Source: a virus
Strand: one strand, 5' to 3'
Virus record (IMG/VR): IMGVR_UViG_3300021962_000492
Coordinates: 1 to 28,625 of that record
Length of the DNA: 28,625 nucleotides
Part shown: positions 2,856 through 28,138 of the stretch, one piece after another
How the letters are laid out: the number at the start of each line of letters is the position of its first letter
Position numbering within the stretch: position 1 is the first letter of the stretch
Position numbers and translations under genes: made by a program
The notes under the pieces: generated by a model
Told to the model about the DNA's origin: nothing
Databases searched by the model: none
What the model saw: the letters and a program-made list of their open reading frames with translations, nothing else

Positions 2856-5800
2856 TTAATTTAACGTGTAGAATGTTCTATTTTCAACTGTAGGACCTGG
2901 CTCTATATATTGTGTTGTGGTCGTCGTAGTCGGAGCCAATGTTGTGGTCGTCGTAGTCGGAGCTACAGTAGTAGTAGTTGTCGGAGCCGCAGTCGTCGTA
3001 GTCGTCGTAGGAGCCGCAGTCGTCGTAGTCGTCGTACTTGTAGTAGTTGGAGCTATGGTCGTCGTACTTGTAGTAGTTGGAGCTATGGTTGTTGTAGTCG
3101 TAGGACCAAATGTTGTTGTAGTGGTTGTTCCAAAACAAGCATTCGAGCAAGATGTATATGGAGTAGTATCTAATAGTTCAGCATATTCATCATAACTAGC
3201 ATTACCTGTAACAAGATAATTATATCCTGTTCGGTAACTTATATAATGTCTGTTTCCTATTATTGTTGATCCTTGAGGGAATATGACTACTACATCATAT
3301 TCTAAAGGAGTACCACAATCTATACAGTCGTATACAGTAGCATAATAGTAATCAAAAATAGTAGGACCTGCTGTTGTAGTAGAAGTTGTACTAGTCGAAG
3401 TAGTACTTGTACTAGTTGAAGTAGTACTTGTACTAGTTGATGTAGTGCTCGTCGTAGTAGATGCTTGTATATTTTGTAATATAACTAATCTATCTGTATT
3501 TTGACATCCATTAATTAATAATGTAACACTTCTTGGCTGTGTACTAGCCGTAACAGTTACATCAATAATTAAATTACCTTCTCCAAATCTTGTACTTAAC
3601 GTAACCCAATCAACACCAACTGGATTAATATACCATTCGTTATTTGATACAATTTGGAATGATTGAGTAGATGCAGTTGATCCAAACTGCAAATATTCTT
3701 TTGAAACATTCATGTAGCATGGATTGGCAATTTCATTGTTATTTACAGCTAAAGTATAGTGCTCATAAAAAGGATCAAAAGAACCTAGTTTAACATTGTT
3801 TGTAGTTAAGCTATTTTTAAACCATGCTTTCATCCCATTGGATGAAATTTCATTTATACCATTAAATCCTAAACTAAGAATTGACCCATGTCTTGAATCA
3901 GCAAAATATAAATCATTACCCCACTTGGCAAAACTTTCAGGATTAAAGGCGATTCCAAATTCACCAACATAGGCAATTTGAGTACCAAGTACCTCAGGGA
4001 TAGAAGCAATTGTTCCACCTCCTACAGAGTCACTTAATAAGTTTTTACCATATAATACTTTAGATACTTTGTCTTCTTGGAATACAACTAAATCAGTATC
4101 TCTAGCATGAAGCTTTTGAATTGATCCGAATGATAAATCTAAATATTTAAAGTTACCATTGCCAAGGTTAAATTCATTTAATCCATTCAATGCTGTATTT
4201 TGTACGTATACACCACTGTATGTTAATCCTTGAGATATAACTTGTTGGCCATAATTCTCTATTACAGCATTAGCACGTGGGCTAAACTGCATAGTAGGTG
4301 CATTCCATGCATCCCTAATTCTATCACTTTCTAATCCATTACCAAATGAGAACGCATTAAAATCTCTATTAGGATATGCAACAAAAGATTTATTTAAATC
4401 AATAATAGCATTAGTGCTATTTAATACTTGATTTTGCTCATTACCCTGATGTGCTCCATTTACAATAGGGAACGTATTAGTTAATTCATAGTATATATCT
4501 TGTGACGTAAGACTTGGTTCTGTTTCAAATAATGTAGCTATTTCTTGTTGAGCAACGGTCAAAGAAACATTAAAGTACGTACTAGATGAATCCACATATT
4601 CTCTGCCTATTATCATGGCAACAGGTTGAATAAGTGATGAACTAGAAATAGAACCTCCTTGACTAGCAGTAGGATTTAATACGTTAACAGGGAATGCAGT
4701 TACTCTTCTAAATGTTACATACTTAGTACCTTCACCTAAAAAGTCTGCCGATGTCCAAGCTCCATCTTCAATAAACCATTCTTCTATATTGGCATAAGTT
4801 CCACTAGATATAAATTGCTTTGATATCTCAGTTCCTGTAGCTGAATACTTTGCAGTAAATTTAAGAATAGCACCAGGATAAATTGGCCTATCACTGTTAT
4901 TTAATGAATTTACATTCCATCCTGGAAGTGTTGCATAAGCAGTACCTCCACTTGTAAAACCAAAAGTTCCTCCAAAAATGTTAACAATAATAGGAACGTT
5001 GTTAGGGTTTGAATCTGCTCTACAATTGACAACCCAATAGTCTCCAACTTTATGACCTGTTGCTGTAGCAAATCTTATCTTACATGATAAAGTAACATTA
5101 TATGAAGAAAAAGTAGAGTTTAATATTGTGCCACTATACGTTAATGTAATATCTACATTAGGTGCAATTGGTATAGGTATATTAGATATCTTAATCTTAC
5201 CCTTTCCGTCAACCATTACATAATACTGAAAAGTATCTGTTGCACCAGTCGAATCTATTTCTACATAAAATCTAGCATCTACACTAGGACGAGCGGCAAT
5301 AGATGTTGTAACTGAATACAAATTATTATTACCTGTAGACATATTATTTAAACCTGTACCATAAAATATAGCATTTTCGGCAACTGAATAATAGCTAGTT
5401 AAAACGTTACTAACAGTAGTTCTTGTAGAATTTCCAGTGTAAGTAAATACACTAGGTAAAATAGAACTTGATACTTTTATTTTAAAGTAAACTCCAGCAG
5501 GCTGGTAGTTTGAATCATTTAAAAAGTTTGCACTTTTAGATTCAATATCTAATACCTTGAATTGTGTATCTAACGCAGGGTTTGTTGAGTTCTTTAAATA
5601 CAAATAAGAACCAACAGATATCTTATCTTGGTCAGCTTGATTAATTAAGAACCATTTAAAATTCCCTTCTGAGAAATAAGTTAATGGGAATACGTTATAA
5701 TAGTTTTGCTTATTTTGTTTTAACACAAAACGATATGCTGTAGCAAAACAAGGTGGCGCAAAAGACTTATCGATTGTAACACGAATGTTATTAGACTTTG

Positions 5801-7010
5801 TAGCATTTGCAGCAGGAATAAATATAGTGTTTGTAGTGCTAACAATTGTTGTCGAAAGCCTACCATATTCATCTAAATATTCAATTCCTACCTCATATCC
5901 TCTATTACTTTTAAATGTAGGTTGAGGATTAGAAGGAACAACATCTGTTGTTATAACTGATAACGAATACACTGGATTAATAGGAGACGTACTACAGTCT
6001 ACTAAATCAAAAAATTGTGTATAGTTACCATATATAAGTCTATTTCCTACTAAGTCTTGAGCTTTTGCTTTTAATGGAACGTTGTCAAATAATCTATTAA
6101 TTTGATCAGCATCTAAAACAGTATAGACTTTGTCGTTTTTAAATGTATAAGTTTGAGTTTGTGATGAAGATAATGAACTTCGCTTGATAGTATCAACGAT
6201 GTAAGCATTAATGCTTGACGAATCACGATATATTAATTGAATCTCTTTAACATTTGCACCTCCCTTATCATAAGTTATTGTAGCTGTATTGAACAAATTA
6301 GTCATAGACTTGTTCTCAGAAACACCATAATCAAAGTTGTATGGTCTTGCTCCAAAAGCAACAGGAGAGAATGGAGCAATCGCACTGTACTCGTTATCTG
6401 CGTATTTATATCTATAAGAAAAATATAAAAACTTATCCTCTAAAAAGTTAGAAACACCTGCTGTATTGCTTAATGAAACAGAAGGTGCTTTTAATGGTGG
6501 CTTTACAATAAGGTTAATATCCTCTTCGGTAAATCCATTTACACTATAGTTCTTAGCAGTGTTAACATTTATTTTTCTAGGAGGGTTTAAGTTATCTGTC
6601 CAGAATAACATTCCGTTCAAATAGTTAACGCCTGTAATTAAATAATCTTTGCTAAAATTTAATGTTGTCTTTGCGGTAGGAGATGCTTTGGTTGCTTTTA
6701 ATACAACAAACGTAAGATCTTCCTCAGAATTATATTCATATACGGCATCAGCAAAGTCAGATGCAACAAACCAATAAATCAAATTTCTTGAATCAACAGA
6801 AATCGCTCCAATGCATCGTGCATTCACTAAATTAATATTTGCATTAACTAGTGAATTCCCTAAATAGTTATGGGCTACTCCAACATGAGATAAGTCAGAA
6901 TCACCTACTGCTATATTTGAAGCATAAACGTACTGTCCATCAGGTAAAAAATGAGGATCTAAATCCGTGTTCATTATTCCCTGCAAGAAATTTCTTTGTA
7001 ATTCTGCCAT
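2856..7010 (-). CDS. Giant tail stabilisation / muzzle-like protein with BACON domain and Thr-rich C-terminus
   Basis: This 1384-residue protein opens with a segment typical of phage tail stabilisation proteins (Asn-Phe-Leu-Gln-Gly-Ile-Met, then a Leu-Pro-Asp-Gly-Gln-Tyr-Val motif). A long beta-rich body follows. Residues about 1100-1182 read as a BACON domain: a strand ending Ser-Phe-Gln-Ile-Val-Ser-Asn-Asn-Glu-Trp, then Trp-Val-Thr-Leu, a glycine turn, Arg-Ser-Val-Thr-Leu and a closing Val-Ile-Leu-Gln. Residues about 1184-1213 and 1292-1368 are almost pure Thr/Ser and Thr/Ala/Pro. They flank a small module with four Cys (about 1214-1289). Gene order after the neck proteins matches the muzzle or stabilisation protein of crAss-like phages. 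BACON domains are thought to bind glycans or mucin. The Thr tracts look like flexible stalks and are plausible O-glycosylation targets. Confidence 0.75.
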   Translation of the reverse strand: MAELQRNFLQGIMNTDLDPHFLPDGQYVYASNIAVGDSDLSHVGVAHNYLGNSLVNANINLVNARCIGAISVDSRNLIYWFVASDFADAVYEYNSEEDLTFVVLKATKASPTAKTTLNFSKDYLITGVNYLNGMLFWTDNLNPPRKINVNTAKNYSVNGFTEEDINLIVKPPLKAPSVSLSNTAGVSNFLEDKFLYFSYRYKYADNEYSAIAPFSPVAFGARPYNFDYGVSENKSMTNLFNTATITYDKGGANVKEIQLIYRDSSSINAYIVDTIKRSSLSSSQTQTYTFKNDKVYTVLDADQINRLFDNVPLKAKAQDLVGNRLIYGNYTQFFDLVDCSTSPINPVYSLSVITTDVVPSNPQPTFKSNRGYEVGIEYLDEYGRLSTTIVSTTNTIFIPAANATKSNNIRVTIDKSFAPPCFATAYRFVLKQNKQNYYNVFPLTYFSEGNFKWFLINQADQDKISVGSYLYLKNSTNPALDTQFKVLDIESKSANFLNDSNYQPAGVYFKIKVSSSILPSVFTYTGNSTRTTVSNVLTSYYSVAENAIFYGTGLNNMSTGNNNLYSVTTSIAARPSVDARFYVEIDSTGATDTFQYYVMVDGKGKIKISNIPIPIAPNVDITLTYSGTILNSTFSSYNVTLSCKIRFATATGHKVGDYWVVNCRADSNPNNVPIIVNIFGGTFGFTSGGTAYATLPGWNVNSLNNSDRPIYPGAILKFTAKYSATGTEISKQFISSGTYANIEEWFIEDGAWTSADFLGEGTKYVTFRRVTAFPVNVLNPTASQGGSISSSSLIQPVAMIIGREYVDSSSTYFNVSLTVAQQEIATLFETEPSLTSQDIYYELTNTFPIVNGAHQGNEQNQVLNSTNAIIDLNKSFVAYPNRDFNAFSFGNGLESDRIRDAWNAPTMQFSPRANAVIENYGQQVISQGLTYSGVYVQNTALNGLNEFNLGNGNFKYLDLSFGSIQKLHARDTDLVVFQEDKVSKVLYGKNLLSDSVGGGTIASIPEVLGTQIAYVGEFGIAFNPESFAKWGNDLYFADSRHGSILSLGFNGINEISSNGMKAWFKNSLTTNNVKLGSFDPFYEHYTLAVNNNEIANPCYMNVSKEYLQFGSTASTQSFQIVSNNEWYINPVGVDWVTLSTRFGEGNLIIDVTVTASTQPRSVTLLINGCQNTDRLVILQNIQASTTTSTTSTSTSTTSTSTSTTSTSTTSTTTAGPTIFDYYYATVYDCIDCGTPLEYDVVVIFPQGSTIIGNRHYISYRTGYNYLVTGNASYDEYAELLDTTPYTSCSNACFGTTTTTTFGPTTTTTIAPTTTSTTTIAPTTTSTTTTTTAAPTTTTTTAAPTTTTTVAPTTTTTTLAPTTTTTTQYIEPGPTVENRTFYTLN
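2910..3115 (-). repeat. Thr/Ala/Pro-coding tandem repeat, distal block
   Basis: Short imperfect direct repeats built from ACG/ACT/ACA Thr codons interrupted by Ala-Pro or Ile-Ala-Pro encode the low-complexity end of the 1384-residue tail protein. Unit lengths vary between roughly 18 and 27 bases. All changes preserve frame, which fits copy-number change by slippage or recombination under coding constraint. Confidence 0.85.
3370..3462 (-). repeat. Thr/Ser-coding tandem repeat, proximal block
   Basis: A shorter Thr/Ser-only repeat lies between the BACON domain and the Cys-containing module of the same protein. It is made of short Thr-Ser-Thr-Ser-Thr-Thr units and lacks the Ala-Pro spacers of the distal block. 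Confidence 0.8.
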
Positions 7011-17169: not shown

Positions 17170-17451
17170 TTATTTGCTTTTAGCTCTAGATTCTGCAAAC
17201 CCTCTGTTTGTATTGACTTGGTTATTAACTACGCCTTCAATGATATTATTCTCTTCTTCTACACGCTTAAGAATCTCGAACGCATCCATGATGGCGAGCT
17301 TCTTTGCTTGAGCGGCATTCTTTAACTTATCAGCACTAAGGTCATCCTCAGCATGCGTTACAATCTTTTCTTCTGCAACCTTAATTAATTCTTCAACGGC
17401 TTTATACCCAGAATCAATTATGCGTTTCTTTAAGTCCGTTATCTTGTTCAT
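17170..17451 (-). CDS. Small helical protein, possible terminase small subunit
   Basis: This 93-residue protein is charged and nearly all helical, with Ala/Lys/Glu-rich heptads through residues 15-70. It lies two genes upstream of TerL, where a small terminase subunit that recognises DNA might be expected. I see no clear helix-turn-helix and do not recognise the family, so the terminase idea is positional. Its start overlaps the end of the 194-residue gene by 38 bases in another frame; an internal start would shorten an otherwise regular N-terminal helix. Confidence 0.55.
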   Translation of the reverse strand: MNKITDLKKRIIDSGYKAVEELIKVAEEKIVTHAEDDLSADKLKNAAQAKKLAIMDAFEILKRVEEENNIIEGVVNNQVNTNRGFAESRAKSK

Positions 17452-17998
17452 TTAATTTGATTGTTATATTCTTGGTATACATTCGATAAACTTTCTCTCC
17501 GTCCACATAAAAAGGATACTCTGATTCAGGCTCAAATATGACCGTGTCGCCCTCGTTTATGCCTAGGCTAAGTACTTCTTCATTTGCAAACTTAATCGTG
17601 CCTACAAGAGGCTTTTCCGTGTCAACAGTGGTAATGCCAGTGTAGTCGTTCTCAACAGGAGAAACAAATACATATCTGCCAATTCCTTTCCATGTGCCAT
17701 CTGTTTTTTTGTAAGCATATGGGTCATCAATAAAAAACAAGTCATCCATAAAGTAATTCCATGATGACTTTTCTCTACCACGCATGTCGTAGTAAATACG
17801 GAAAGTGTTGTGATGAACAAGCACCATATCGCCTGGCTCTATCGGACCTTCATATCCAATAGGAGTAGAGATGACAACAGCCTCACGCATTGTTGCTAGG
17901 TGGTCCTCTTTAGAAGTAGAAATGATAATTCCGTTACGCTCATTGTCGTAGCGTTTGCCGTCTCTTGATTTGACGACAAAATAAAAAGGAGACTTCAT
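17414..17998 (-). CDS. GroES-like (co-chaperonin fold) protein, possibly duplicated domain
   Basis: This 194-residue protein seems to contain two GroES-like beta units. The second, about residues 108-184, is clearer: Arg-Tyr-Val-Phe-Val-Ser-Pro, then Val-Gly-Thr-Ile-Lys-Phe, then Glu-Gly-Asp-Thr-Val-Ile-Phe, then Val-Asp-Gly-Glu-Lys-Val-Tyr-Arg-Met and Ile-Thr-Ile. This order resembles GroES (DRVLVK ... GxV ... GDxVLF ... DGxEY ... DILAV). The first (about 22-70) repeats the pattern with Ala-Val-Val-Ile-Ser, Pro-Gly-Asp-Met-Val-Leu-Val. A phage co-chaperonin would help the host chaperonin fold the capsid protein, as T4 gp31 does. The family call is by pattern only. It overlaps the next gene by 38 bases. 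Confidence 0.5.
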   Translation of the reverse strand: MKSPFYFVVKSRDGKRYDNERNGIIISTSKEDHLATMREAVVISTPIGYEGPIEPGDMVLVHHNTFRIYYDMRGREKSSWNYFMDDLFFIDDPYAYKKTDGTWKGIGRYVFVSPVENDYTGITTVDTEKPLVGTIKFANEEVLSLGINEGDTVIFEPESEYPFYVDGEKVYRMYTKNITIKLNEQDNGLKETHN

Positions 17999-18510: not shown

Positions 18511-18879
18511 CTAATATCCTTGATAATGTTTTTCTTCAATTATATTAGAATTGTATTTTAAATTAATTTGCTTTTTAAGATCCGCACGCTCGTCGTTTCT
18601 GTGGTACACAGCACGTGCTAGTCTAATAAAATTTAAATTAAAGTCTCCGTGTTTCTCACAAACTCTGATCTCATCCTCAATCTCCCATAGTCTTCTATTA
18701 ACAAACTTAAGTTTATCATATAGCTCATCTTGAAGCATATCTTCTTCAACTAAATCAAGAATCATGTAGTATTCTTTTGATACATTCTCTAACTTAGCTT
18801 CATCCTTTATCTTTTCCATTTTAATTCCTAGGATAGATAACTTATCTAATGCTTCTCCAATACTAACTTCTATGTTCAT
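18511..18879 (-). CDS. DUF6165-like helical protein
   Basis: This 122-residue protein opens with Ile-Glu-Val-Ser-Ile-Gly-Glu-Ala-Leu-Asp-Lys-Leu-Ser-Ile-Leu-Gly-Ile-Lys, then Lys-Ile-Lys-Asp-Glu. I associate this pattern with DUF6165, small helical proteins often encoded beside glycosyltransferases in surface-glycan clusters. Here too it is divergent from a glycosyltransferase gene across a 40-base gap, which supports a link with glycosylation. Molecular function is unknown. The family call is from memory of the motif and would be settled by a profile search. Confidence 0.6.
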   Translation of the reverse strand: MNIEVSIGEALDKLSILGIKMEKIKDEAKLENVSKEYYMILDLVEEDMLQDELYDKLKFVNRRLWEIEDEIRVCEKHGDFNLNFIRLARAVYHRNDERADLKKQINLKYNSNIIEEKHYQGY

Positions 18880-18919: not shown

Positions 18920-21781
18920 ATGAAGCAAGCATATGTATTATACGCAACTGAATCATACGCAGAAACAATAGAAGCATGCGTAGAATCATTAAACTACCAT
19001 ACTAGCATTCCAACGCTAGTATATATGCTAAACTCGGATAGGCAGATTAAGAATGCAACCTTTACTATCAGATGGGATTGCGATGCTATAAATCCAGATC
19101 AAAAAGAATACATAGACCGTACAAGTCTAGACATTTATAAAATTTTAATTCAAAGACCACTTGTAGTTGCTGATGCTTTAAAGTATGCAGAAACAGTTGC
19201 CTATGTAGACTCTGATTCAGTTGCAACTAAATATGCATCAACTATTTTTAATATGTTCAATGAGTCATCACCTATCCCCTACTTTGTGGAGGGTATCTAT
19301 GATTACTTGCATGTGGGCGACAGGGGAGGGGCTGAAAGTAAAGATGACCTGAGTACAACACTTGAGCATCCTGCATGCGAGTTATTTGGTGTCAATCAAT
19401 ACGTTCGAGAACGATACAGACAAACAGGATACTTTGTTGCAAATAGAAACTGCATAGACTTCCTTAAAGAGTGGTACGACATGTGTACGCATCCACAGAT
19501 ACTTGAAAACAACGACTACTATGCTGCGTATAATGAGGAGACAATATTAAACGTATTACTTTGGAAGTATAACTTTCATGATGGGTTGCCATATATCTAT
19601 GTGAATGGTAAGAAGGACATGGTAGACAGAGTAAACAGCATGGACATATTCACAGGGTCAGACTACATGATGGCTAGTTGGGTTCGGATACCTGCATACA
19701 AAGAACGACTACTCTTCTACCACGGAGAAAAGAAATACAATAAAATGATAGATATGATTAATCCAATTAAAGTAATGTATTTAGTACCACACCTTTCAAC
19801 GGGGGGTATGCCTGCATTTGTACTTAAGACATTAGAAGCTTTAGATGGAAAGATTATACCATATGTTGTTGAATATCAATGTTACAGTTTAGACTATGTC
19901 GTTCAGCGTAATAAGATAAAAGAAATTGTAGGCAAGAACTTTACTACTCTATTCGAGGATAATACATTGCTGTTCAAAGCGATAAGTGACTTCAAGCCTG
20001 ATATTATTCATTTGCATGAGCCTGCTGAACGATTTGACCATAGCATCATGGCTAAGTTGTATAGTAATAACAGAGACTATAGAATAGTAGAGACTTGTCA
20101 TGACATTGCATTTGATCCTATCAAAGAGACATTGTTCCATCCTGACTCTTATGCATTCTGCACGCCATATCATTACAAGACTTTTGAGAGTTTACCATCT
20201 TACAAGCAAGTCATTAATTATCCAATTGATAGTAAAGAAAGAACTATTCTACCAACGGGAAAAAACGTGTTAAATGTTGGACTATGGACACCAGGCAAGA
20301 ACCAAGCAGAAGGTATCGAGATAGCTAGAAAGTATCCTGATTTTACGTTTCACTTTGTTGGCAATCAAGCAGGTAACTTTCAGCACTATTGGGAGCCTTT
20401 AATGAAAGACTTACCAAAGAATGTAATTGTGCATGGAGAAAGAGAGGATGTATCAAACTTTATGTTTGGTGCTGACATCTTTATGTTTAATTCTACATGG
20501 GAATGCAATCCACTTGTGCTGAGAGAAGCGATTAGTTATGGCTTACCAATCATTGCTCACAACTTGCCACAATACTGCGGTATGTACGATAAGTATATAC
20601 AGCCTATTGACACGGACCTTAGAACAATAAAGGCAAACTACGAGAAACCAAAATACGAGACAACAGAGATATTTGGCATTGAATATTTAGGCTTCTACAA
20701 GCATACATTGAATAATAAGAAAGAGGACCAAGATGTGACATTAATACAAAACTTTATTGATGGTCCATACTTAGAACTTAAGTCGCCTGTAGAATTTGAT
20801 TTTAAAGTTCAGTTTTTTGATGAGAAAGGAAAATGCCACTACGAGAATACAATTAAGTCCAACTCTTGGGTTAAGTTAAATCGGAAATATTTTACCGAAT
20901 GGACAACTAAAGTATTTGAGAATGATGATCTCGTGTACGAGAGCACGCTGTCATACAAAGACAAGAAGGTATTAATATCATTTGAATCGTCGTCACTTGG
21001 AGACACACTTGCATGGATACCTTATGTATTAGCATTTAAAGAAAAACACGAATGCCATGTGGTAATTTCAACATTCTGGAATAAGTTATTCAACTACCCT
21101 GAGTTAGAATTTGTTGAACCAGGTACTGTTGTTGATGGGATATATGGCCAATATAATATAGGCTGGTTTTATGATTCCAATAAAGAGCCTTTAATGCCTA
21201 ACACAGTAAGACTGCAAGAAACGATTACTAATATATTAGGTTTAGATTTTGAAGAACTAAAGCCACGGATAAAGTTTAAGAAGCGTAAAAATACTTATGG
21301 AAAGTATGTTACGATTGCAACAAACTCAACATCAGGATGCAAGTTTTGGACTAGAGAAGCTTGGCAAGAAACAATAAATTATTTACACGCATGTGGATAC
21401 AAGGTGATTAATGTATCTAAGGAAGATAACCCATTTGATAATTGCGAGAAGATTGACAACGTTAGCATTGAAAATACAATGAGCGTTATTTATAATAGTG
21501 AATTTTTTATTGGTTTATCAAGTGGACTTAGTTGGCTTGCATGGGCATTAGACAAGCAAGTTGTAATGATAAGTAATTTTACTAAAGATGATCACGAGTT
21601 TGATTGCATTAGAATTACTAACAAAAAAGTTTGCCACGGATGTTGGAATAGCAATGAATATAAATTCGACAAAGGAGACTGGGATTGGTGCCCTGTAAAC
21701 AAAAATACTCCTAAGCATTTTGAGTGCCAAAGGAGTATTACTGCTATTGATATTATATCTGCTATTAAGTATTATTTATAA
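18920..21781 (+). CDS. Three-module glycosyltransferase: GT-A + GT-B (GT4-like) + TibC-type O-heptosyltransferase
   Basis: This 953-residue enzyme is the only plus-strand gene. Residues 1-280 are a GT-A module with Tyr-Val-Asp97-Ser-Asp99. Residues about 282-570 are a GT-B module: Leu-Val-Pro-His-Leu-Ser-Thr-Gly-Gly near 288, and Glu528...Glu536 in the GT4-style EX7E donor motif. Residues about 606-953 resemble autotransporter O-heptosyltransferases: Leu-Gly-Asp-Thr-Leu-Ala-Trp-Ile-Pro-Tyr near 693, Gly-Leu-Ser-Ser-Gly-Leu-Ser-Trp-Leu-Ala-Trp near 865, and four Cys at 905, 908, 924 and 936 as in the TibC metal finger. TibC-family enzymes add heptose to Ser/Thr of surface proteins. The likely acceptors here are the phage's own Ser/Thr-rich fibres. 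The gene converges with the oxygenase gene, overlapping by 10 bases. Confidence 0.82.
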   Translation: MKQAYVLYATESYAETIEACVESLNYHTSIPTLVYMLNSDRQIKNATFTIRWDCDAINPDQKEYIDRTSLDIYKILIQRPLVVADALKYAETVAYVDSDSVATKYASTIFNMFNESSPIPYFVEGIYDYLHVGDRGGAESKDDLSTTLEHPACELFGVNQYVRERYRQTGYFVANRNCIDFLKEWYDMCTHPQILENNDYYAAYNEETILNVLLWKYNFHDGLPYIYVNGKKDMVDRVNSMDIFTGSDYMMASWVRIPAYKERLLFYHGEKKYNKMIDMINPIKVMYLVPHLSTGGMPAFVLKTLEALDGKIIPYVVEYQCYSLDYVVQRNKIKEIVGKNFTTLFEDNTLLFKAISDFKPDIIHLHEPAERFDHSIMAKLYSNNRDYRIVETCHDIAFDPIKETLFHPDSYAFCTPYHYKTFESLPSYKQVINYPIDSKERTILPTGKNVLNVGLWTPGKNQAEGIEIARKYPDFTFHFVGNQAGNFQHYWEPLMKDLPKNVIVHGEREDVSNFMFGADIFMFNSTWECNPLVLREAISYGLPIIAHNLPQYCGMYDKYIQPIDTDLRTIKANYEKPKYETTEIFGIEYLGFYKHTLNNKKEDQDVTLIQNFIDGPYLELKSPVEFDFKVQFFDEKGKCHYENTIKSNSWVKLNRKYFTEWTTKVFENDDLVYESTLSYKDKKVLISFESSSLGDTLAWIPYVLAFKEKHECHVVISTFWNKLFNYPELEFVEPGTVVDGIYGQYNIGWFYDSNKEPLMPNTVRLQETITNILGLDFEELKPRIKFKKRKNTYGKYVTIATNSTSGCKFWTREAWQETINYLHACGYKVINVSKEDNPFDNCEKIDNVSIENTMSVIYNSEFFIGLSSGLSWLAWALDKQVVMISNFTKDDHEFDCIRITNKKVCHGCWNSNEYKFDKGDWDWCPVNKNTPKHFECQRSITAIDIISAIKYYL

Positions 21782-22356
21782 CTTCCTCCACCAATCCACA
21801 ATACTAAACTTTTTCTAGTTCCCTTTTCCATTGGTGTTACCTTATGCATCAGAAAGGATGGGAATATCATAACATTTCCAATACCTTTAGGAGCTAAAAC
21901 AGGAGTTTGTCCATTCCATAAAACCAACTCTCCTCCTTCATAACTATCTGCTTCCGACAATTGAACAACCATAGATATTTTTCTATGATTTATTGGAGCT
22001 GGGCCTATATCGATATGCCAATCATAATGACCTCCATTTTCTTCATATTCAGTAAATTGAATTGAATCAATTACTCCATGTAAGTTAAATTTCCAAAGGG
22101 CATTATTTGCTTCTTCACACATTTTAATTAGCTTCTCATAAAGCCAATGTGATTTTATGTCGTGATGAATCCATTTAACTCTTGATTTTCTAATTGAATC
22201 ATCAGAATTTCCTACTGTTTCAGCATTGTGGTAATCATACAAATTTGCAAGATTCTGAACCCACTCTATTTCTTCATTAGAAAATGCATTAGTAAAAGTA
22301 TAATAATTGGTTTGATCTATATTAGATTCAGCTTCAAATAGTAGAGTTTTGATCAT
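21772..22356 (-). CDS. Prolyl 4-hydroxylase-like 2OG-Fe(II) dioxygenase
   Basis: This 194-residue protein has Gly-Gly-His-Tyr-Asp-Trp-His114-Ile-Asp116, then Arg-Lys-Ile-Ser-Met-Val-Val-Gln-Leu-Ser, Tyr-Glu-Gly-Gly-Glu-Leu, and Pro-Ser-Phe-Leu-Met-His171-Lys-Val-Thr-Pro followed by Arg181-Lys-Ser. These are the iron and 2-oxoglutarate ligands in the order and spacing of the P4H/PKHD class. It lies downstream of the collagen-like tail fibre, with one small gene between, on the same strand. It is therefore a candidate modifier of Pro or another residue in that fibre. Nucleic-acid or host-protein substrates cannot be excluded. It overlaps the upstream gene by 23 bases. Confidence 0.82.
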   Translation of the reverse strand: MIKTLLFEAESNIDQTNYYTFTNAFSNEEIEWVQNLANLYDYHNAETVGNSDDSIRKSRVKWIHHDIKSHWLYEKLIKMCEEANNALWKFNLHGVIDSIQFTEYEENGGHYDWHIDIGPAPINHRKISMVVQLSEADSYEGGELVLWNGQTPVLAPKGIGNVMIFPSFLMHKVTPMEKGTRKSLVLWIGGGSYK

Positions 22357-22768
22357 TTTTATACATTAAGTATTCTAATTCATTTTTAAATGTAGGAATA
22401 TTTTCTTGAATAACAACATCATAATTTAACCAAGGTGACTTTATCTCAGATTTAATTATTTTTTTATTTTTTCTTTCCTCTAATTCAGCAAGCATACTGT
22501 TCTTCATATACTCAACATTTGAAGTGCCACAAGTATTTATAATAAAATTGACAAAATCAGAATGTTTTAGCTGATTGAATGGTATAAAATGTTCCTCGGT
22601 TGGATTTGGCAGAAAAACATCTTTCATAATAAATGTTGTTTCATCTCCTTGTGACTCTACGTCATATGTAATGATAGCAAATTTTATTCTTTTAATTGTA
22701 TCTGGGAATGCAGCATCAGCACTATTCACTTCCGTTTCTAAGATGTCCCATTGAAAAATGTAAGCCAT
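22334..22768 (-). CDS. Small phage protein, DUF7936-like, near tail fibre
   Basis: This 144-residue protein begins Met-Ala-Tyr-Ile-Phe-Gln-Trp-Asp-Ile. It continues with a strand Ile-Lys-Arg-Ile-Lys-Phe-Ala-Ile-Ile, then Phe-Ile-Pro-Phe-Asn-Gln-Leu near residue 62 and a helical end. This resembles a family seen in many environmental phages (DUF7936 by my recollection), often close to fibre genes. Function unknown; a fibre accessory or chaperone would fit the place, 12 bases after the collagen-like fibre and coupled to the hydroxylase-like gene. Confidence 0.55.
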   Translation of the reverse strand: MAYIFQWDILETEVNSADAAFPDTIKRIKFAIITYDVESQGDETTFIMKDVFLPNPTEEHFIPFNQLKHSDFVNFIINTCGTSNVEYMKNSMLAELEERKNKKIIKSEIKSPWLNYDVVIQENIPTFKNELEYLMYKNDQNSTI

Positions 22769-22780
22769 AATTTTATTTGT

Positions 22781-25700
22781 TTAAAATATTCTTCTACAAG
22801 TAATATATAAAGTTCCTCCTTTGTCAGTCAATTGATAACCCATTGCTAATCTAATACCTGATGATGCTCCACCATTTGATTCAGATATAAAACGTATCCA
22901 ATCAAAAGATGTACTTGCGCCTGAAAATAAACCTGAATACTCCCAACCAGCTGTTCCCCATCCATATGTAGTAGCAAAAGGGCAGAACATAAATGAAACA
23001 GATACACCCCAGTTACCATTGTTAGTTGCAAAATAAACAGTACAAACATAAGTACCTCCTCCTTGTAAATCACCTTGGTAAATAGCAACTTGTCCTGCTC
23101 CAGACCAACTAGTATTTATATTATGAGCACGAGAAACTGTATGTGTAGACGAACCACCTGAAGGACCCGTAGGACCTGTAGGACCTGTAGGTCCAGTAGC
23201 TCCTGTAGGACCTGTAGGACCTGGGCCACCTGAAGGACCTGTAGGACCTGGAGAACCTGTTGGTCCTGTGTTACCTGTATTACCTCTTGGGATTGTAAAG
23301 TTAAATACTGCCGCTGAACTTGTGCCACTATTTGTAACAGAAGCGTTAGTTCCTGCTGCTCCTGTAGTAGTAGTTCCAACTGCAATAGTTGCAGCTGCTC
23401 CTGTTGGACCTGTTGGACCTGAAGCTCCATTTGTTCCTGAAGTACCAGAACTTCCACTTGTTCCTGTTGTACCTGACGTACCTGAAGTAGCAGATGAACC
23501 GGATGTACCACTTGTACCCGATGATCCGTCACCTCCACTAGCACCGTCTAAGTTAATTATCCAAGATGTATATGTTCCAGATCCAACTGTTCTAAATGGT
23601 GCTGAAAATTGTAATGAACCTGTTAAAGGATTATAAGCAACAACCTCGCATTCCTGGAAGTTATTAGCATCATAAACAACGATAATAGACTGAGCAACGG
23701 TATATGACAAACCAACACCAACTGTAATTGTTCCTGCACTACCTAATGTAAATGCTGTAACAGATGTAGTAGCGTATCTGTCTCCTGAGTTTCCTGATGT
23801 ACCTGATGTACCAGTTGTACCTGACGTACCTGAAGTACCCGATGTAGACGAAGTACCACTTGTACCTGATGTTGCAGACGTACCTGATGTTCCTGTAGTT
23901 CCGCTAGTACCTGATGTAGAAGCTACTGATACACCAACTTGCTTAATATTTGTAATAATAGATGGTGCAGCAGGAATAGCAACAGGAGTAGTCTGTGCAG
24001 GTACAGCTGTTATTTGAACATGCTCACTATCTGAATAAAATATAATCTCTAAATAATCATTTGTCGCTAAATCAGTAATTACAGATACGTATGGAAGCGA
24101 TGTTGATGAGTTAGATACAATACCTAAAATAGAATCTGTTCTTAAAATATCAGATCCATTTTTTCTCAACCAAATATCTACCTCAGAGTTAGTACCCTGA
24201 GTTTTTTCTATTTGCAATGAGTATCCTATCTCATAAACACCTGCATGCTGAACCTGTATTTGTGATCCACTTGCTGTAATACCATTAGATATCTCTACAG
24301 TATTATATGTTATAGGAGTTGGTATATTTGCTCCAGCAACAATTTGAGTTTGTGAGCTAGAGAATGATGCATACCAGTTAGACACAGCCGCTCCAGATGA
24401 TCCGTCAATACCATTACGCCCTGATGTACCTGCAGAACCAGATGTTCCTGATGTGCCACTTGTGCCCGAAGTACCTGATGTTCCATCAACTCCTGATGTT
24501 CCTGAAGTACCATCTACAGCAGATGTTCCCGAAGAACCACTCGTTGCAGATGTTCCTGAAGAACCACTAGTACCTGTAGTACCTGATGTTCCTGTAGTAC
24601 CTGAAGAACCGCTAGTACCTGCTGTTGCAGATGTACCGCTAGTTCCTGATGTACCTGTCGTACCTGCTGTACCGCTAGTTCCTGATGTACCTGATGTACC
24701 AAAAGTTCCATCTATACCTGAAGAACCTGAAGATCCTGATGATCCCGAAGTACCTGTAGTACCTGATGTTCCTGATGTTGATGAAGTACCTGAAGTACCT
24801 GAAGTACCTGAAGATCCGTCACCACCACTAGCTCCATCTAGATTGACTATCCATTGTGAATATGTTCCGCCACCAACAGTACGTGTAGGTGCTGCAAATT
24901 GTAAAGATCCAGTCGATCCATTATAAGAAATAACCTCACATTCTTGGAAATTACTTGAATTATAAACTACAATAATAGATTGTGCAGGAGTATAAGATAA
25001 ACCTAATCCAACTGTAATTGTACCTGCACTTCCAAGAGTAAACGTTGAAGTAGAAGTGGTATAGTATTTATCTCCCGTAAAACCGGATGTTCCTGACGTT
25101 CCTGTCGTACCGGACGTTCCACTAGTTCCAGATGTTGCAGAAGTACCTGACGTTCCACCTGTACCATTGGTTCCTGACGTTCCCGAAGTTCCACTAGTTC
25201 CTGACGTTCCCGAGGTAGCTGATGTACCACTAGTCCCAGAAGTACCTGAAGTTCCTGTTGTACCACTAGTTCCTGACGTTCCAGAAGTACCTGTGGTTCC
25301 TGAAGTCCCTGAAGTACCTGTGGTTCCTGAAGTTCCCGATGTACCTCTTGTTCCTGAAGTTCCACTAGAACCTGATGAACCAGAAACTCCTGAGAATAAA
25401 CCAAAACTCAATGATGCATTTGCGTTAATATTGGAAGATACTCCTTGTATTAAATACAAATTCAATAAATAATAATTACCATCTTGAGTAACACTGTCAA
25501 CACGATAAAGAGCATAGATGCTTGGCTGTCCAGGGCTATGAACTAATATAATTTTATTAACCCATTGTTGTTGGATATAAGTACCAGGTACAGTTCCTGC
25601 TAATGTTAGATAAGATACACTAATTGTACCACCTAAATTATTAATATTAATTGTGTTTGCACCATATCCAACCTTTGCAAATGTTTTAGATGATTGGATT

Positions 25701-25891
25701 TGTGTGCTAGAGTATGGAGTATAGTTCCACGCAAATTGACCAGTATCAATTAAAGATACATTGTTTAAATAAGCAGCAACAGCATCGGCTGTAAAGTTTT
25801 TGGTTATTTTATCGTTTTCCCAATCCGTTCCAATCCACCGGTCTAAACCTGTTACATTGGTATCTAAACTGTATGTACTTATACGTGCCAT
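22781..25891 (-). CDS. Collagen-like tail fibre with C1q-like domain and duplicated beta module
   Basis: This 1036-residue fibre has a conserved-looking phage N-terminus (Met-Ala-Arg-Ile-Ser-Thr-Tyr ... Lys-Asn-Phe-Thr-Ala-Asp-Ala-Val) that probably attaches to the virion. Long Gly-Thr-Ser/Gly-Thr-Thr triplet blocks alternate with globular modules: a beta module at about 268-355, a C1q/TNF-like jelly roll at about 500-652 (Ala-Gly-Val-Tyr-Glu-Ile-Gly-Tyr ... Leu-Arg-Lys-Asn-Gly), a second copy of the beta module at about 699-785, and a small domain at about 830-870. Gly-Pro-Thr triplets fill about 872-911. A distinct Trp/Gly-rich tip (912-1036) is the likely receptor-binding end. It is probably a trimer. 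Confidence 0.85.
23159..23280 (-). repeat. Gly-Pro-Thr collagen-like coding repeat
   Basis: Nine-base units encoding Gly-Pro-Thr (some Gly-Pro-Ser, Gly-Ala-Thr) lie just before the fibre tip. It is the only proline-rich collagen block in the protein and resembles the GPT tracts of BclA spore fibres. Confidence 0.85.
23421..23540 (-). repeat. Gly-Thr-Ser triplet coding repeat, block 4
   Basis: Imperfect nine-base repeats encode Gly-Ser/Thr-Ser triplets after the second copy of the duplicated beta module. Ala and Asn appear at some X positions. Confidence 0.8.
23537..23795 (-). repeat. Duplicated fibre module, second copy
   Basis: This stretch encodes about 87 residues that match 24826-25088 closely. 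Shared features include [12 protein letters not shown], Gln-Ser-Ile-Ile-Val-Val-Tyr, Phe-Gln-Glu-Cys-Glu-Val and Leu-Asp-Gly-Ala-Ser-Gly-Gly-Asp-Gly. Synonymous and conservative differences show the duplication is not recent. Confidence 0.9.
23795..23925 (-). repeat. Gly-Thr-Ser triplet coding repeat, block 3
   Basis: Nine-base units encode Gly-Thr-Ser/Gly-Thr-Thr/Ala-Thr-Ser triplets between the C1q-like domain and the second beta module. Confidence 0.8.
24405..24830 (-). repeat. Gly-Thr-Ser triplet coding repeat, block 2 (longest)
   Basis: More than 40 Gly-X-Y triplets with mostly Thr and Ser at X and Y lie between the first beta module and the C1q-like domain. Isolated Ala, Asp, Val and Phe break the pattern. 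Proline is essentially absent. Confidence 0.85.
24826..25088 (-). repeat. Duplicated fibre module, first copy
   Basis: This is the N-terminal copy of the beta module also found at 23537-23795. Each copy starts with Gly-Asp-Lys/Arg-Tyr after a triplet block and ends with Gly-Ala-Ser-Gly-Gly-Asp-Gly running into the next triplet block. Confidence 0.9.
25080..25390 (-). repeat. Gly-Thr-Ser triplet coding repeat, block 1
   Basis: About 33 Gly-X-Y triplets follow the fibre's N-terminal attachment domain. Thr at X and Ser at Y dominate. Nine-base unit repetition is clear at DNA level. Confidence 0.85.
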
Positions 25892-27548: not shown

Positions 27549-27565
27549 ATTTATTATTTATGTTA

Positions 27566-27573
27566 CAAAGATA
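27566..27573 (-). promoter_or_regulatory. Candidate Bacteroidota -7 element TATCTTTG
   Basis: This is the same eight bases as the motif before the neck gene at 8599. It lies 17 bases before the 44-residue gene and just after the stop of the 45-residue gene, so it could start a transcript covering the spike-base and lysis genes. No clear -33 element seen. Confidence 0.35.
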
Positions 27574-27711
27574 TTACTTTTTTTTCTCTTGCTTTTTAAT
27601 CTTCTTCTCTTGCTTTAACATTTCTTTTGTAGGCTTTTTGCCTGAGCCTTTACTTGCTCTGATGTTATTCCACAAAGAGTTTTCTACTCCTAATTTATTT
27701 AGCTTTTTCAT
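27574..27711 (-). CDS. Small Lys-rich protein (45 aa)
   Basis: Reading the minus strand gives 45 codons, ATG at 27711 to TAA at 27574. It begins Met-Lys-Lys-Leu-Asn-Lys-Leu-Gly-Val-Glu and becomes almost entirely Lys, Glu and Gln toward the end (Lys-Gln-Glu-Lys-Lys). It may bind DNA or RNA or be packaged with DNA, but no family is recognised. Confidence 0.5.
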   Translation of the reverse strand: MKKLNKLGVENSLWNNIRASKGSGKKPTKEMLKQEKKIKKQEKKK

Positions 27712-27830
27712 ATTAAGAACCTTTTACCTATTTTTTAGATGCAGATGCAGTATTTTACTGACTACACTTAATTTTATTTGCCCAATAAACAGCCTACAAT
27801 TTGCACAATGCAATGTTTTTAGCATGACCA
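27711..27830 (-). pseudogene. Decayed tandem copy of the 3' end of the 101-residue gene
   Basis: This segment lines up with 27831-27950 at an offset of exactly 120 bases, about 70-75% identical by eye without gaps. The match covers the stop codon position (TTA at 27713-27715 against 27833-27835) and a shared 13-base block with the Ala-Lys-Asn-Ile-coding bases. In the parental frame the copy reaches a TAG within about a dozen codons and carries small indels, so it no longer encodes the same peptide. It looks like an old tandem duplication now decaying. Confidence 0.65.
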
Positions 27831-27832
27831 AA

Positions 27833-28138
27833 TTAGGATCCTTTTACCCATTTTTTAGATGGCGATGCAGTTTTACTCGGTGACCACTTAACTTTATCTG
27901 CCCAATATGCAGCAGACATTTTACCTTTAGCAATGTTTTTAGCATGACGAGATTTAAAAGCTTCACGTTGACCAGCTGTCTGGTTAGTTTTAACACCTGC
28001 TTGACCAAAGCGAATTAACTTAACTTGGTCACCTTCTTTAGCTAGGACAACATGTGACTTACCACCTGTTGTTTGGCGTTTAGGTTTATTAACACCGGCT
28101 AGTCCATATCGGTCCAACATGTTCTTAATATCTGCCAT
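27833..28138 (-). CDS. Conserved small basic phage protein
   Basis: This 101-residue protein has Val-Lys-Leu-Ile-Arg-Phe-Gly-Gln-Ala-Gly-Val near residue 40 and Lys-Ser-Arg-His-Ala-Lys-Asn-Ile-Ala-Lys-Gly-Lys-Met-Ser-Ala-Ala-Tyr-Trp near residues 63-80. I know this combination from many environmental tailed phages as a conserved small protein without settled function. The strong positive charge suggests nucleic-acid contact or packaging in the head, which is inference. The start shares one base with the upstream stop (TAATG). The last 40 codons are the source of the decayed copy downstream. Confidence 0.7.
   Translation of the reverse strand: MADIKNMLDRYGLAGVNKPKRQTTGGKSHVVLAKEGDQVKLIRFGQAGVKTNQTAGQREAFKSRHAKNIAKGKMSAAYWADKVKWSPSKTASPSKKWVKGS

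Follow-up and report, generated by a model that had tools for sequence, protein, structure and literature searches.

A three-domain phage glycosyltransferase with a TibC-like domain and its pairing with Ser/Thr-rich collagen-like tail fibres, its probable acceptors

The window, by which we mean the whole stretch of DNA analysed, is the 28.6-kb virus record IMGVR_UViG_3300021962_000492 (IMG/VR class). It encodes a glycosyltransferase (GT) with three domains, the last of which is TibC-like and of the BAHT family, and, on the opposite strand, a collagen-like tail fibre rich in Ser and Thr (Table 1). The pairing of a BAHT with an autotransporter was not found here: there was no autotransporter among the window proteins scanned, NCBIfam detected no passenger (strand-loop-strand) repeats in the neighbours, and the Ser/Thr-rich neighbour is the tail fibre. 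Here we describe the enzyme, its relatives and the recurrence of this pairing in other phages.

The C-terminal domain matches TIGR04414, the Aah/TibC O-heptosyltransferase model, over residues 614-950 (profile positions 18-372 of 374) with 256.2 bits (E 4.6e-76), the curated cut-off being 200 bits. Comparison of the enzyme with TibC (PDB 4rap) by phmmer gave an E-value of 8e-49, and a Foldseek comparison of the AlphaFold2 (AF2) model with the same structure gave a TM-score of 0.82 on the TibC length (E 4e-27, 30% identity). Seven strands predicted at residues 607-677 would form the N-terminal beta-barrel of the TibC fold. According to the residue mapping, the TibC catalytic base D110 corresponds to D695, T226/K230 to T804/K808, and W305 to W872; all four are invariant in 33 of 33 clusters of fused enzymes (80% identity of the BAHT domain, Mel-JY01 counted). 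The TibC iron-finger cysteines C339, C342, C358 and C370 map to the putative metal ligands C905, C908, C924 and C936. Membership of the BAHT/TIGR04414 family is well supported by the sequence and by the structural model. The profile match, the fold and the retained catalytic Asp and Cys residues bear out a preliminary description, made from the DNA letters, which had recognized a TibC-like C-terminal third with four patterned Cys.

The same description had proposed a fusion to GT-A and GT-B modules, and this proved correct as well. The middle domain contains a Pfam Glycos_transf_1 match (residues 443-553, E 1.3e-11, 44.8 bits against a cut-off of 26.4), and the Glu pair of its EX7E motif is invariant in an alignment of 26 sequences. 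A Pfam search of residues 1-282 returned no match. The AF2 model of this part (pLDDT 92.8) matches GT-A enzymes (alpha-1,3-GalT / ABO, GT6; Foldseek E 2e-8), a likeness at the level of the fold only (10-13% identity, TM-score about 0.5), and the DxD metal motif of GT-A enzymes is invariant in the alignments of the domain. All 26 aligned sequences match the TIGR04414 family, and DxD, EX7E, the catalytic Asp, the donor-site Thr/Lys/Trp and the four Cys are invariant throughout. Therefore, three active sites are expected, and all three domains are apparently active.

The identity of the first sugar is less clear. In TibC, Arg286 contacts the adenine N1 of ADP-heptose, and the R286A exchange abolishes or largely diminishes activity (PMC4358343). 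The corresponding residue of the window enzyme is T853, with no alignment gap between this position and W305. Thr occupies it in 31 of the 33 fused clusters, and Arg in 76 of 80 single-domain phage BAHTs, which were retrieved with an alignment of other BAHTs and represent the 80 kept of at least 591. TibC Pro300, to which stereoselectivity is ascribed, is replaced by Ser in most fused enzymes; Aah likewise carries Ser-294 there (PMC4358343). Judged by these residues, heptose is possible but not established as the sugar of the fused lineage, and the enzyme may use another nucleotide sugar. Because Arg286 is replaced by Thr, we name it a TibC-like O-glycosyltransferase, not yet a heptosyltransferase, and do not retain the O-heptosyl label given to it at first.

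One scan yielded 79 viral loci with relatives, on contigs of 7 to 321 kb and nearly all encoding the same protein; since most carry the whole fusion, it is not a chance product. Some relatives have additional N-terminal domains, namely a SAM-methyltransferase (locus L008), an FkbM methyltransferase (L044) or GT25 (L053), and the 1581-aa chain of L073 reads GT4 - GT-A - GT25 - BAHT - FkbM - DUF6165. Chains of 1460-1600 aa were seen in L073-L077. The enzyme parts are split or differently arranged in L080 and in Microcystis phage Mel-JY01 (PP395634), in which 1.7 kb separate the BAHT gene and a collagen-like ORF rich in Ser/Thr. A cellular origin of the fusion was considered and rejected: the only contig match, in a scan with two peptide patterns, which is a weak scan, was a fragment (L545:2-658) at the end of a Bacteroidetes metagenome-assembled contig that runs into host genes, a probable misjoin. 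None of 296 Bacteroidota genomes gave a TIGR04414 match over the cut-off.

To describe the surroundings of the enzyme, we searched for collagen-like open reading frames (ORFs), counted as Ser/Thr-rich when their tracts held at least 40% Ser/Thr. Such an ORF was present in 26 of the 33 fused clusters at a median gap of 876 nt, and it lay downstream and convergent in 22 of the 26. Six of the seven clusters without such an ORF have less than 4 kb of downstream flank. As a side observation, L036, L040, L041 and L071 have a second collagen-like gene, with only 20-23% Ser/Thr, placed between those of the enzyme and the Ser/Thr-rich fibre. The single-domain phage BAHTs show the same association: in 28 of the 28 longest loci a collagen-like ORF was found 1.5-7.3 kb away, with 38-67% Ser/Thr in the tracts of 26 (fractions of 0.37 in L611 and 0.08 in L597). 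Among random viral loci, drawn with a 14-mer pattern since an earlier 16-mer pattern yielded too few, only 2 of 118 had any collagen-like ORF, and one of these two was Ser/Thr-rich.

The pairing was also approached from other genes. When loci were picked by their terminase, independently of the enzyme, the fibre was present in 19 of 25 loci with a BAHT and in none of 55 loci without. In the reverse direction, records were chosen by DNA pattern (40-50 per group; random records over 15 kb). TIGR04414 was detected in 13 of 50 records with (GT[ST])n repeats, in 0 of 50 Gly-Pro collagen records and in 1 of 40 random records (Fisher p 1e-4 and 2.5e-3). In the sole positive random record, 70 bases separate the BAHT from a Ser/Thr-rich collagen ORF of 1033 aa. 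Among the (GT[ST])n records the rate climbed with record length, reaching 8 of 10 above 60 kb, a split made after seeing the data. Within the close clade of the window phage (terminase at least 83% identical), the enzyme gene is regularly found next to that of the fibre in loci of sufficient length. This qualifies the early suggestion of a mobile moron: the gene does recur in many unrelated phages, but in this clade it is a regular neighbour of the fibre and not a sporadic insertion.

The candidate acceptor, which the preliminary description had not named, has an unusual composition. Its 99 triplets comprise 47 GTS, 10 GTT and 9 GSS, with Thr at X in 62 and Ser at Y in 61; Pro occupies X in 11 triplets, located towards the C-terminal end. 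Thr and Ser are encoded by mixed synonymous codons, indicating that the repeat is maintained as a protein sequence. Pooled enzyme-linked fibres have Thr (0.67) or Ser (0.21) in X, Ser (0.75) or Thr (0.10) in Y, and practically no proline; in Gly-Pro control fibres Pro accounts for 0.56 of X, a value set by the search design. In bacterial collagens Pro is the commonest residue in X and Thr in Y (PMC8968730). The E. coli prophage protein EPclA is likewise a collagen-like phage tail fibre, but has Pro in close to half of its X positions, and recombinant EPclA is not glycosylated (PMC3368898).

Taken together, many phages carry the enzyme gene beside a gene for a Ser/Thr-rich collagen-like fibre, and it is probable that these phages glycosylate their own fibres. 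We estimate a probability of about 0.75 that the system is one of phage-encoded O-glycosylation of Ser/Thr-rich virion fibres, with the Gly-Thr-Ser collagen-like tail fibre as the likely acceptor. Several observations weigh against this reading. L058 has the enzyme with 10 kb of downstream flank and no collagen-like gene, and two BAHT-domain loci from uncultured phages of 735 kb and 636 kb (L543, L544) have none within 12 kb. By eye, L058 also encodes two 2OG oxygenases and radical-SAM-like and carbamoyltransferase-like proteins, and perhaps has another acceptor. The terminase-selected loci with and without BAHT form largely separate clades, so that the contrast holds few independent events, and those without are shorter (mean 10.0 vs 15.6 kb). 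Of the (GT[ST])n records, 37 of 50 had no BAHT; many of these are short fragments, and a BAHT is missing from 20 of the 21 records under 20 kb. This means that the fibre may not always need a BAHT or that other enzymes serve. Finally, TibC was found to modify Ser, not Thr, and to do so on a beta-helix, not a collagen (PMC4358343).

The strongest alternative is that the enzyme glycosylates other virion proteins, such as mucin-like Thr-rich tails or capsid and tail proteins, and that the gene for the collagen fibre only happens to share the late region with it. Indeed, virion protein 2856-7010 (1384 aa) carries an extended Ser/Thr-rich tail, ending in STTTSTTSTSTS... plus PTTTTTT repeats; its homologues in elemo phages and MW202828 share only the N-terminal 350 residues and have no mucin-like tail at their ends. 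T5+ proteins occur in 17 of 33 enzyme loci against 4 of 120 Gly-Pro loci, and in the part of BAHT locus L540 that was read there is a TPTPTET repeat protein but no collagen. When collagen-like ORFs are counted too, tracts of 40 aa with 60% Ser/Thr were found in 24 of the 33 enzyme loci, in 0 of 55 terminase loci without BAHT and in 1 of 120 Gly-Pro loci, a contrast that also speaks for the fibre reading. However, collagen-like genes are the more constant partner of the enzyme. Most of the related loci stop short of the C-terminus of the virion protein and do not reach the tail. We consider this explanation unlikely.

It is more improbable still that the enzyme remodels the host surface (lipopolysaccharide (LPS), capsule or another glycan) against superinfection, in the manner of seroconverting glycosyltransferases. 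Phage glycosyltransferases can alter the host serotype (PMC12619734), and the GT4 and BAHT domains are weakly similar to LPS enzymes, but the TibC-like domain passes a curated protein-glycosylation model, keeps the iron-finger Cys, and has virion genes as its constant partners. Glycosylation of phage DNA bases hydroxylated by the adjacent 2OG-Fe(II) oxygenase is very improbable. This neighbour and the ability of phage glycosyltransferases to modify DNA (PMC12619734) speak for it, but the oxygenase resembles PKHD-type hydroxylases (NCBIfam), its family occurs in few other loci, and the enzyme gene sits with fibre genes.

For glycosylation of the phage's own fibre, the domains, their conserved catalytic residues and the recurrent genomic pairing are observations, and from these we infer the fibre's role as acceptor, the sequence in which the three domains act, and the purpose. 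Most likely, the TibC-like domain would put the first sugar on Ser/Thr of the Gly-Thr-Ser fibre, and perhaps also on the Thr-rich tail of virion protein 2856-7010, in the infected cell before virion assembly. The fused GT4 and GT-A domains would extend this sugar to a short glycan, and the three-enzyme fusion would hold intermediates at one site. The 2OG oxygenase could hydroxylate the few fibre prolines, or another protein. In the proline-poor chain, glycans could plausibly do the job of proline and hydroxyproline in ordinary collagen by stiffening or hydrating the rod; protection of the fibre from proteases is also plausible.

Further modification of the glycan is suggested by neighbouring genes in other loci, which include APS kinase, a nucleotidyltransferase of the CTP_transf_like fold, sulfotransferases, FkbM methyltransferases and GT9-like proteins. 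Of the 79 enzyme loci, 21 contain APS kinase, 19 sulfotransferase and 25 DUF6165; all three are absent from 120 Gly-Pro collagen loci. The methyltransferase, APS kinase and sulfotransferase neighbours point to possible methylation or sulfation of the glycan, in which case these tailoring genes would act on the enzyme's product; the fusion in L073 ties DUF6165 to the function of the enzyme. A sulfation-type cassette with APS kinase, mostly also with the nucleotidyltransferase and sulfotransferase, was seen beside the enzyme in L012, L021, L026, L032, L034 and L055. No sulfation genes were found among the window proteins scanned. We propose only tentatively, as somewhat under an even chance, the broader scheme of a modular phage assembly line that O-glycosylates virion fibres of both the Gly-Thr-Ser collagen and the mucin-like kind, to which hydroxylation, methylation and sulfation may be added, whose glycans stabilise proline-poor rods, and whose fused lineage has switched from ADP to another donor nucleotide.

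Compared with the TibC/Aah BAHTs (TIGR04414; PDB 4rap, 4rb4), the window enzyme shares the whole domain with its beta-barrel, iron-finger Cys, catalytic Asp and Thr/Lys/Trp donor residues, as well as a gene position adjoining that of a Ser/Thr-rich repetitive surface protein. It differs in being phage-borne, in having the BAHT as the C-terminal part of a three-enzyme fusion, in the Arg286 to Thr and Pro300 to Ser replacements, and in its partner, a collagen-like fibre and not an autotransporter. Mimivirus L230, a collagen hydroxylase-glucosyltransferase, also combines both activities in a virus that modifies its own collagen-like protein (PMC4691112). However, L230 acts on hydroxylysine, whereas the window tracts are Thr/Ser-rich with almost no Lys, and the TibC-like transferase is of another kind and in a bacteriophage. 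The BclA spore glycoproteins of Bacillus and Clostridioides are prokaryotic collagen-like proteins whose glycans are thought to aid a hydration network (PMC8968730), but bacterial collagens favour Pro in X and Thr in Y, compared with Gly-Thr-Ser here, and the enzymes are others. Mycobacteriophage virions carry glycans too, located on capsid and tail-tube C-termini according to work cited in PMC12619734; no collagen-like fibre is reported in them.

The terminase of the window is most closely related to those of MW202828 (67%), Flavobacterium elemo phages (44%) and Cellulophaga phages, and the order of terminase, portal and structural proteins is that of elemo/Cellulophaga-type podoviruses. These terminase relatives alone suggest a host of the phylum Bacteroidota. 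A GroES-like co-chaperonin gene (17414-17998, minus strand) adjoins the terminase, as in elemo phages. The enzyme gene had been described as the only one on the plus strand, which is essentially true, although another plus-strand ORF (27560-27883, 107 aa) is not overlapped by a larger one. Around the enzyme gene, promoter-like sites were no commoner than in shuffled sequences, and no terminator was found.

Table 1. Features of the window discussed in the text
Feature	Position	Strand	Basis and remarks
Trimodular glycosyltransferase	18920..21781	+	ATG start, 953 aa; Pfam, TIGR04414, alignment
GT-A domain, residues 1-282	18920..19765	+	AF2 + Foldseek, alignments; invariant D97xD99, GT6-like fold
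GT-B domain, GT4 type, residues 283-600	19766..20719	+	Pfam, Foldseek, alignment; EX7E = E528/E536
TibC-like (BAHT) domain, residues 606-953	20735..21781	+	TIGR04414, 4rap, residue mapping; beta-barrel, D695, C905/C908/C924/C936, T853 at TibC Arg286 position
Collagen-like tail fibre, 1036 aa, 35% Ser+Thr, likely acceptor	22781..25891	-	Pfam Collagen 4e-45, PHROG tail fibre, composition
Fibre Gly-X-Y tract span	23158..25390	-	99 triplets
2OG-Fe(II) oxygenase between enzyme and fibre	21772..22356	-	Pfam PF13640 7.6e-16, NCBIfam, PHROG
DUF7936 protein between oxygenase and fibre	22334..22768	-	Pfam
DUF6165 protein, divergent neighbour of enzyme	18511..18879	-	Pfam; homologous domain at enzyme C-terminus in L073
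Ser/Thr-rich mucin-like C-terminal tail of virion protein 2856-7010, second candidate acceptor	2856..3470 (limits approximate)	-	

In literature searches that left subscription journals and preprints mostly outside their coverage, no paper on phage BAHTs or on a BAHT-collagen pairing was found; the pairing is wide, testable and undescribed in the searchable papers. An enzyme class known from adhesin glycosylation is here placed in very many phages, with at least 591 confirmed viral BAHT-domain relatives, and a class of substrates can be named for it. The two phage BAHT classes, split by one donor-site residue, offer a direct test of donor choice. From the pairing one would expect tail fibres that are glycoproteins, with consequences for receptor binding, resistance to proteases and the recognition of phages. 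It also provides a natural case where glycans may take the place of proline in a collagen-like rod.
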